A DNA stretch of 64,000 nucleotides from contig REDR01000043.1 of assembly GCA_007693385.1 (NCBI GenBank), forward strand, positions 124,001 through 188,000, given 5' to 3'. Every line of letters starts with the position of its first letter. Within the stretch, counting starts at the first letter, position 1. Origin of the DNA: Anaerolineaceae bacterium. Its GTDB lineage: Bacteria; Chloroflexota; Anaerolineae; Aggregatilineales; Phototrophicaceae. Position numbers and translations under genes: made by a program. Positions 20,198 to 22,759 of this stretch are shown piece by piece. The notes below the pieces were generated by a model that saw only the letters and a list, made by a program, of their open reading frames with translations, was not told the origin of the DNA and made no database searches.

Positions 20198-22759
20198 CTA
20201 ACGGCGCGGCAGGCGCGGTAGGGCGTTGCAGGTGATTTCATAGTTGATCGTGCCGATATTGGCCGCCACTTGCTCGGCGGTGATCTGCGCTGAGCCTTGC
20301 TTGCCGATCAAAACGACTTCATCGCCGACGGCGGCCTGCGGGATGTGTTCGATGCTGATGATGGTCTTTTCCATCGAGACACGTCCGCGAATCGGCGCAC
20401 GTTGCCCGCGCACCAGCACTTCGCCCGCGTTCTGCGGTCCGCGCCGGTAACCATCGCCATATCCGACGGGTAACAGCGCGACACGCTCCGGCTTTTCGGT
20501 GATGTAAGTGTTGCCGTAGCCGATCGGGTGTCCGGCGGGCAGTGTTTTGATCTGCGCGATCAGTGTTTTCCACGTCAGCGCAGGCTGGAAGCCTTCCGGC
20601 AAAGTCACGTCGTCGGATGGGTGCAGGCCATAGAGCGCGATGCCCGGCCTGACCAGATCAAAATGCGCGGCGGGATGGGCGACGGTGGCGGCGCTGTTGG
20701 CGGCGTGGACGTACTTGAACGTCCGTCCGGTGGCGGATTGTATATCGCGCAAGGCCGCCATGAAGCGCTCGGTCTGCTGTTCGGTGTAATCCGAGAGGCT
20801 ATCGGCCATTGAGAAATGCGTGAAAATGCCCTCAGCCTGTACATTTTGCAGGCTGGATAAATGGCGCACCAGCAAGACCACGCCATCCGGCAGAACGCCG
20901 ATGCGCCCCATGCCGCTATCTAGTTTGATGTGTACCGTCACTTTGTTGTTGATCTCGGCGGCGACGCGATCATAGGCGCTGGCCGTCTCGATGTCGAACA
21001 CGGTCAATGTGATGTCGTTGAGCATCGCGTGACGCGCCATGTAAGGCGGCGTGTAGTTCATCGCCAGAATCGGCGCGTTAATCCCTGCTTCGCGCAAGGC
21101 CAGCGCCTCATGCACCGACGACACGCCCAGCCACTCCGCGCCATTGTCTAACGCGGTGCGGGCGGTCATCTCCGCGCCGTGTCCGTAAGCATCCGCTTTG
21201 ACGACGGCCATCAATGCGACATCGGCGGACAGCATCGCTTTGAGCTGGCGCACGTTGTTAGCGATGGCGTCGTAGTTGATTTCCAGCCATGTCAGGCGCG
21301 TGGGATGCGATAAGATGCTATCCGCAGGCGGGGCGGGTAGTTGTGCGATGTCGGCTTCGCGTTCCAGCAGTGACCGCGTGAACTGTTGCATCCCGCACGC
21401 GATTCCCGCGTTAATCACCACCAGATCATCGGCGTCGAGTTGATAACCACGCTCGAAGCGTTTGATGGCGTCCTGCGGCGTGGCGGTCATCTGCACGCGA
21501 TCCGGCGGTAGCCCGTAATCCAGCGCGGCGCGTCCGGCGATGGCCGCGCCTGTGCCCTGCGTGAATAGCACATCGACCACTTTTGCCGCCCGTTGCCCGA
21601 TGGCGCGATAGACGGCGGCGTGATTTTTACCCGGATTGTCGATGTCGCCCAGCATGAAAAAGACGCGCCGTTCGGCGGTTTTGCGCGTTTCTTCCAGCCA
21701 ATCCAGCATACCCATCGCGGAGAGCACGCCGCCGCCATACGTGCCGTCGATCAAGCGTGAACCGCCGCGCCCGTCTAGCGGGCGTAAGCGTCCCGGCAAC
21801 GGCGATAGTTCGCCCAGTGCCCGCAAACCGTCAGCCAGTGGGATGTCGTGATGCAAGCCGACCTGAAGCGCGGCCAGCAAGCAGTTAATGTGATGCTTGC
21901 TGAGGAACGACACTTTGATGCCGTTGTGCCGTTCGTTACCCATCCGTAGATCAAACACCGTGCCATCGTCCCCGGCCTGAATGTTGTAGGCCATCATGTC
22001 CGCGCCGAAGCTGGTGCCATACGTGCTGACATCGGCGCGGGTGGTGGTGGCTAGCCCGCGCACACGGTCATCGTCATGGTTTATGACCGCCACGCCGCCC
22101 GGCGGCAACAGATCGACCAGTACGCGCATCTCTTCCGCCATCTGATCCGGTGAGGCGAATCCGCCCATGTGGTAATTGCTGATATTGGTGATGACCGCCG
22201 TCTGTGGCTGGGCGGCTTCGGCCAATGCGCCCATCTCGCCGACTTCGCTCATGGATAATTTCAACACGGTGAATTGATCGCTGGGCTTGAGGCTGGCGAG
22301 CGCGAATGGCACGCTCAGGCGTCCGTCGGCGGCGTCCGGCTTGCTATGTACCGCGTAGCGCGTGCTGAGTACGCGCCCGATGGCGTCGGCGGTGATGGAT
22401 TTCCCCGCGACTCCGGCCACGCCGATGACCTGTGTACCGTAACGCCCCAGCATGTATTGTGCCCACTGCATCAACGCGCCGACCACATCGCGCACCATGA
22501 CCACCGAGACGCCGTCGGTATCGCATTGCGGCGGATTCTTGCAGATCAGCCCGCGTGCGCCGTTCTGGATCGCTTGCCGGATGTTGGCCTGAATGTCGCC
22601 TTCCGGCGTGGCGATGGCGACAAACATCTGCCCCTGTTTGATCTGTGCGGCATCGGCGGAGAAGGCATCGAATAATTGCGCGGCGGGTTCGCCGAGTATT
22701 TGCCCGTTCGTCGCTGTGACGAATTCGTATAAATTAATCATCTCGCTGATGTCATCCAA
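20198..22759 (-). CDS. alr: MurF-like Mur-ligase domain fused to alanine racemase
   Basis: An 853-residue fusion. Residues 1-475 have the Mur ligase layout, closest to MurF (D-Ala-D-Ala adding enzyme). Residues 485-853 are a complete PLP alanine racemase: VKADAYGHG with the PLP Lys521, HIKLDSGMGRIGV, YGDGYRR with the catalytic Tyr, and GRVSME. The racemase part is surely active. The ligase part is altered: the P-loop GVAGVAGKS is kept, but the LEMG motif reads LKLS (Glu to Lys167), the DDSYNANP motif reads IDGTYGGGV, and the HN motif reads HHINC. Known MurF-Alr fusions in Bacteroidota keep these motifs. It may be a non-catalytic or changed-substrate domain; a separate MurF should exist. An alternative start at Met7 is possible. 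Confidence 0.85.
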   Translation of the reverse strand: MDDISEMINLYEFVTATNGQILGEPAAQLFDAFSADAAQIKQGQMFVAIATPEGDIQANIRQAIQNGARGLICKNPPQCDTDGVSVVMVRDVVGALMQWAQYMLGRYGTQVIGVAGVAGKSITADAIGRVLSTRYAVHSKPDAADGRLSVPFALASLKPSDQFTVLKLSMSEVGEMGALAEAAQPQTAVITNISNYHMGGFASPDQMAEEMRVLVDLLPPGGVAVINHDDDRVRGLATTTRADVSTYGTSFGADMMAYNIQAGDDGTVFDLRMGNERHNGIKVSFLSKHHINCLLAALQVGLHHDIPLADGLRALGELSPLPGRLRPLDGRGGSRLIDGTYGGGVLSAMGMLDWLEETRKTAERRVFFMLGDIDNPGKNHAAVYRAIGQRAAKVVDVLFTQGTGAAIAGRAALDYGLPPDRVQMTATPQDAIKRFERGYQLDADDLVVINAGIACGMQQFTRSLLEREADIAQLPAPPADSILSHPTRLTWLEINYDAIANNVRQLKAMLSADVALMAVVKADAYGHGAEMTARTALDNGAEWLGVSSVHEALALREAGINAPILAMNYTPPYMARHAMLNDITLTVFDIETASAYDRVAAEINNKVTVHIKLDSGMGRIGVLPDGVVLLVRHLSSLQNVQAEGIFTHFSMADSLSDYTEQQTERFMAALRDIQSATGRTFKYVHAANSAATVAHPAAHFDLVRPGIALYGLHPSDDVTLPEGFQPALTWKTLIAQIKTLPAGHPIGYGNTYITEKPERVALLPVGYGDGYRRGPQNAGEVLVRGQRAPIRGRVSMEKTIISIEHIPQAAVGDEVVLIGKQGSAQITAEQVAANIGTINYEITCNALPRLPRR

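Follow-up and report, generated by a model that had tools for sequence, protein, structure and literature searches.

Architecture of the fusion gene

At this locus lies a single minus-strand open reading frame (ORF; 20198-22759 of the window, by which we mean the whole 64,000-nucleotide stretch analyzed) that encodes, in one frame, an N-terminal MurF-like ligase and a C-terminal alanine racemase (Alr). ORF inspection and domain searches bore out the frame, strand and coordinates given by an earlier, sequence-only reading of this DNA. The TTG start chosen there is probably wrong, because the methionine at residue 7 (MINLYEF; ATG at 22741) aligns with the M(I)SLYD start of nearly all relatives, and the protein would then have 847 aa. 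Residues are numbered from the TTG throughout, and catalytic assignments follow the established biochemistry of MurF and Alr, transferred by alignment. The features are as follows.

20198..22741, minus strand: MurF-Alr fusion gene, coding from the probable ATG for 847 aa and a stop codon; 6 codons longer if begun at the TTG (22759)
22436..22741, minus strand: Mur domain 1, residues ~7-108 (the UDP-binding domain in true MurF), DSR motif reading DAA
21815..22435, minus strand: Mur middle (ATPase-fold) domain, residues ~109-315 (Pfam PF08245 at 114-300)
22397..22423, minus strand: P-loop GVAGVAGKS, residues 113-121, intact with T to S (alignment)
22259..22261, minus strand: Lys167, replacing the Mg-site Glu of LELG/LEMG (alignment)
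22169..22171, minus strand: His197, equivalent of the Mg-site His, retained (alignment)
22127..22129, minus strand: Met211, replacing the carbamylated Lys of the KGE motif (alignment)
21881..21895, minus strand: HN motif reading H289-H290-I-N-C293, with neither adenine-side Asn left
21788..21790, minus strand: Arg324 of PGR, retained (alignment)
21725..21754, minus strand: LIDGTYGGGV where MurF has LLDDSYNANP, first Asp retained, second Asp changed to Gly
21335..21814, minus strand: Mur C-terminal domain, residues ~316-475 (domain matches)
21293..21334, minus strand: linker, residues ~476-489 (gap between domain matches)
20201..21292, minus strand: alanine racemase half, residues 490-853, with K521, R619, H648, N688, R704, Y767, M796 and Y840 present
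21197..21199, minus strand: Lys521, the PLP lysine of the racemase

Pfam recognized Mur_ligase_M (residues 114-300, E = 3.5e-24), Ala_racemase_N and Ala_racemase_C in the protein, together with a weak Mur_ligase_C match under the Pfam cut-off. With phmmer, residues 6-408 aligned to P. aeruginosa MurF (4CVK, E = 5.7e-26) and E. coli MurF was also matched. The racemase half is complete, as had been read from the letters alone: equivalents of K39, Y43, K129, R136, H166, N203, R219, Y265, M312 and Y354 are all present by alignment, and the alanine racemase model TIGR00492 scored 369.5 bits against a cut-off of 168, with the PLP Lys, the catalytic Tyr, R136/R219 and Y354 all in place. The fused Alr is the genome's sole Alr: beyond it, PF01168 matched just one 254-aa frame there.

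Active site of the ligase half and a second MurF

We scored the ligase half at six core positions: the P-loop Lys, the Mg-site Glu, the Mg-site His, the carbamylated Lys, the PGR Arg and the second Asp of DDSYN. In the alignment, the window protein keeps three of these (P-loop Lys, His197 and Arg324) and has lost the other three, the Glu to Lys167, the carbamylated Lys to Met211 and the second Asp to Gly339. The stretch equivalent to DDSYNAN reads D338-G339-T-Y-G-G-G, with the first Asp (Asp338) retained and the Asn lost too; position 339 is Asp in 70 of 75 fusions from the same order, and the window protein is the sole Gly among the 75. The full set of six occurs in 31 of 33 separate MurFs; among fusions it occurs in 13 of 34 from across the phylum and 11 of 76 from the order. 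Every phylum-wide fusion (34/34) has both the P-loop Lys and the Glu; among the order fusions, the P-loop Lys is kept in 63 of 76, the Ser after it in 62 and the first Asp in all 76.

Alignment with E. coli and P. aeruginosa MurF upheld the intact P-loop, Lys167, DGTYG and HH described in the sequence-only reading, and Met211 is a loss additional to those. The possibility that the motifs are intact at shifted positions was ruled out by alignments with these two proteins and with relatives, and loss of HN was discarded as a mark of inactivity, Ser standing there in 12 of 19 free-standing MurFs examined. Set against MurF (TIGR01143; E. coli 1GG4, P. aeruginosa 4CVK), the window protein is alike by sequence across the three Mur domains and in the P-loop, the PGR Arg and the Mg-site His, but differs in the Mg-site Glu, the carbamylated Lys, both Asn of HNxxN and the second Asp and Asn of DDSYN, so that homology spans all three domains while the TIGR01143 catalytic set is kept at three of six positions. 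The model itself scored 201 bits over positions 2-413 of 418 against a cut-off of 288.6, weak evidence alone, as a membrane-type MurF itself scores 219. Structure prediction of the ligase half from a 2-row alignment gave a mean pLDDT of 38.5 and was unusable. The best reading of these residues is that the ligase half no longer ligates D-Ala-D-Ala.

The sequence-only reading had proposed a search for a second complete murF, and the genome (137 contigs, 97% complete) does contain a second MurF with intact motifs. Five Mur ligases are encoded there: besides MurC, MurD, MurE and the fusion there is a 544-aa MurF-like protein on contig 73 (L002 922-2556; C73:21250 region). The last has 4-5 hydrophobic segments in place of Mur domain 1, lies ~7 kb from a Ddl homologue and retains the P-loop, Glu, His, carbamylated Lys, HN, Asp and NP intact. 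Among 41 genomes of the order, draft assemblies of which many are fragmented, we observed either a membrane-type or a free-standing MurF, never both, and one fragmented genome had neither. Family members without the fused ligase half (G001, G010, G016, G018, G022) have the membrane-type MurF only, mostly beside Ddl. We infer that the membrane-type protein, whose activity is predicted, is the working MurF of the genome. A MurF that lacks the UDP-binding domain may have a membrane-bound substrate.

Descent, stepwise decay and selection in the family

Of 154 genomes of the order, at least 79 encode the two halves as a single frame, and fusions are widespread in Chloroflexota. In the MurF tree, the fused MurF domains of Chloroflexota, 60 in all, group in a single clade (SH-aLRT 100) that excludes free-standing MurFs, membrane MurFs and three Bacteroidota fusions, and the Alr-half tree likewise parts the Bacteroidota fusions from the Chloroflexota ones; both trees are quick searches, and Bacteroidota are represented by three rows. 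The Chloroflexota fusion is thus one ancient clade, and because the two groups form separate clades in both half-trees, the Chloroflexota and Bacteroidota fusions are most likely independent. The ancestral Chloroflexota fusion was probably active as a ligase, since fusions with all six core positions survive both in the order and across the phylum.

The Bacteroidota bifunctional MurF/Alr (NF008897 / PRK11930; bifunctional is its NCBIfam name) shares with the window protein the order MurF then Alr and a length of about 820-850 aa. The window protein scored 402 bits with NF008897 (280.6 and 120 as two pieces), below the cut-off of 804, and it falls outside the clade of the three Bacteroidota rows in both half-trees. 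By these comparisons it is a variant of the same kind of fusion without membership in that family. In PLSDB, vanT of a vanG cluster is the label given, at 34-37% identity, to MurF/Alr fusions of Bacteroidota and to many ordinary Alr genes (L103, L104, L105), which is probably a loose resistance annotation.

A single-protein search for related loci returned Alr-only relatives in named genomes, the best named match being an Alr from a 'Chloroflexi bacterium', and several deletions within the family have removed the ligase half while the racemase survived (L037, L126, L128, L055/L127). In one genome (L170, G383) a frameshift or fission has divided the fusion into two neighboring ORFs, with the break close to where the ligase half ends. 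Elsewhere in the phylum, small near-complete genomes (families f24, f54, f56 and others) gave no Mur ligase match, which is consistent with wall-less Dehalococcoidia-like members. Gene neighborhoods of the fusions revealed no conserved functional context or partner, just a local gene island common to some relatives.

The tree of the 76 order fusions places at least 8 losses of the P-loop Lys. The PLP Lys of the racemase is lost in nine genomes (families f2, f4 and f6), where it is replaced by P, R, E, A or Q and other racemase active-site residues are gone as well; these losses number one to three, with three on the full-length tree and a single clade on the Alr-only tree, the latter possibly through long-branch attraction. 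A full-length ORF persists in seven of the nine, the copy at L163 being cut by a contig end and that at L036 broken by a stop. Loss of the PLP lysine is accompanied by a degraded MurF site at L030, L032, L035, L044, L158, L159, L160 and L163. At L036 (G035) both the P-loop and PLP sites are dead and the ORF is interrupted by TGA, which may reflect a pseudogene or an assembly error. A separate intact Alr is present in six of the nine genomes; in the complete 41-genome survey, with phylogeny ignored, a separate Alr accompanied 3 of 5 altered fused Alrs versus 0 of 22 intact ones, and a wider Fisher test drawn from an incomplete list of matches was set aside in favor of this set. In the dead racemases, catalytic columns were kept at 37% compared with 73% for other conserved columns (permutation P = 0.001), and Pfam still recognized the domains of dead forms. 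To judge by these columns, the dead racemases have kept the fold and lost the active site.

To measure constraint, Nei-Gojobori dN/dS was calculated between copies that share, and hence probably inherited, a dead site. For P-loop-dead ligase halves we obtained 0.075-0.133 (L027/L174/L175) and 0.126 (L178/L180). Among PLP-dead pairs, L035/L160 yielded 0.095 for the ligase half and 0.135 for the racemase half, and L030/L163 yielded 0.113 and 0.169; these are rough values, as synonymous sites are near saturation, with nonsynonymous divergence clearly lower. More distant dead pairs gave less reliable values of 0.2-0.6. Across live and dead forms, 115 columns are nearly invariant, many of them in the ligase half, whose best conserved part in the order is domain 1. 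The N-terminal half, whose conservation the sequence-only reading had singled out for checking, is therefore conserved in relatives and under purifying selection even after loss of the P-loop Lys. Low dN/dS after loss, changes concentrated at catalytic columns and domains still recognized by Pfam are signs that the order's dead copies are pseudoenzymes and not pseudogenes. The N-terminal half of the window protein is the sixth most divergent of 68 fusions with a live Alr (15% of conserved columns changed, median 5%), and constraint on it may be relaxing; among the relatives found, none was close enough for dN/dS on the window's own lineage.

Explanations for the retained ligase half

We lean, with some confidence, toward reading the N-terminal half as a non-catalytic pseudo-MurF module on the cell's sole alanine racemase, retained by selection while a membrane-anchored MurF carries out the MurF step. 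Under this explanation the fusion would supply the cell's alanine racemase activity and its MurF-derived N-terminus would make no D-Ala-D-Ala ligation; that step would fall to the separate membrane-anchored MurF with intact motifs near the Ddl homologue. The dead ligase domain would owe its retention to selection for a job other than catalysis. Most probably this would be a structural or docking/regulatory one, by which the racemase is held or tuned beside the cell-wall precursor machinery, and in the simplest mechanism the module would aid the racemase by structure, placement or allostery. Whether this job would be scaffolding, allostery or stability is conjectural, because purifying selection without catalytic residues shows constraint and not a job. 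Of the earlier proposals, that the ligase half may have lost activity has thus become the best reading, given the second MurF and the constraint on the N-terminal half in relatives, while a regulator or scaffold of D-Ala supply stays a suggestion. Counting against a non-catalytic role, the half has been deleted repeatedly with the racemase surviving, so it is not indispensable to the racemase, the window's N-terminal half is divergent, no conserved neighboring gene hints at a partner, and the P-loop Lys kept in most order fusions would fit retained nucleotide binding.

The deletions without replacement would also suit a half that has no job at all and is kept by its fusion to an essential racemase, having to fold harmlessly and not being easily deleted. 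Its position in frame with the sole Alr, the heterogeneous, lineage-specific decay and the unusual divergence of the window copy point the same way. We nevertheless consider such a passive relict unlikely, as hitchhiking on racemase activity fails in the PLP-dead genomes, seven of which preserve the ORF at full length despite the dead racemase and most of which have a separate intact Alr; dN/dS near 0.1 on both dead halves argues against it as well, and so do the columns, many from the ligase half, that hardly vary whether the forms are live or dead. Retention of the P-loop Lys and Ser, Arg324 and Asp338 in the window protein, of the Ser and first Asp in most or all order fusions, and of domain 1 as the best conserved part of the half could instead indicate that the half still binds ATP, serving as a nucleotide- or precursor-gated switch or in another ligation. 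This is improbable in our estimation: the half stays constrained through the repeated losses of the P-loop Lys, many members have a degenerate DSR motif in domain 1 (DAA here), which also weakens a substrate sensor acting through that domain, and no alternative residue set is conserved where the catalytic residues vanished. The proposal in the sequence-only reading that the half ligates something else loses ground on the same point, the losses differing by lineage with no single new residue set in place of the catalytic one. That the fusion is a still-active MurF, a second isozyme, seems very hard to credit in the face of Glu to Lys at the Mg site, carbamylated Lys to Met, second Asp to Gly and the low murF score, the last weak alone, even though some order and phylum fusions keep all six positions and HN loss occurs in free-standing MurFs as well.

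A broader proposal, possible though we hold it only tentatively, credits the MurF-Alr protein as a whole with a conserved non-catalytic role in this order that depends on neither activity; scaffolding or sensing the synthesis of cell-wall precursors would be examples. The ligase and then, with a separate Alr present, the racemase would have become dispensable, leading to a selected double pseudoenzyme, and the window protein would represent an intermediate stage.

For the preferred reading of a pseudo-MurF module there are partial analogies. PMC12681378 presents PAP11, from cryo-EM studies, as a Mur ligase homologue turned peripheral component of another machine. PAP11 is also among the PDB matches of the window protein, but it is MurE-derived, belongs to the plant plastid and is not fused to Alr, and so is an analogy only. 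The Ddl of the Chlamydia trachomatis MurC/Ddl fusion relies on the fusion structure for its activity (McCoy and Maurelli 2005, cited in PMC4803751). This protein likewise joins two cell-wall precursor enzymes and offers a precedent in which one half supports its partner; it differs in the enzymes concerned, and a dead half is not described in that text.

Mur-pathway pseudoenzymes are little described in bacteria, and in the open literature searched we found no publication on a bacterial Mur-ligase pseudoenzyme or on the Chloroflexota MurF-Alr fusion. The family forms a natural series within one order, from near-intact bifunctional through ligase-dead to double-dead proteins, with selection detectable after the losses. 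Such a series makes testable what job the protein has besides catalysis, and likewise whether cytoplasmic cell-wall enzymes also serve structurally in Chloroflexota.
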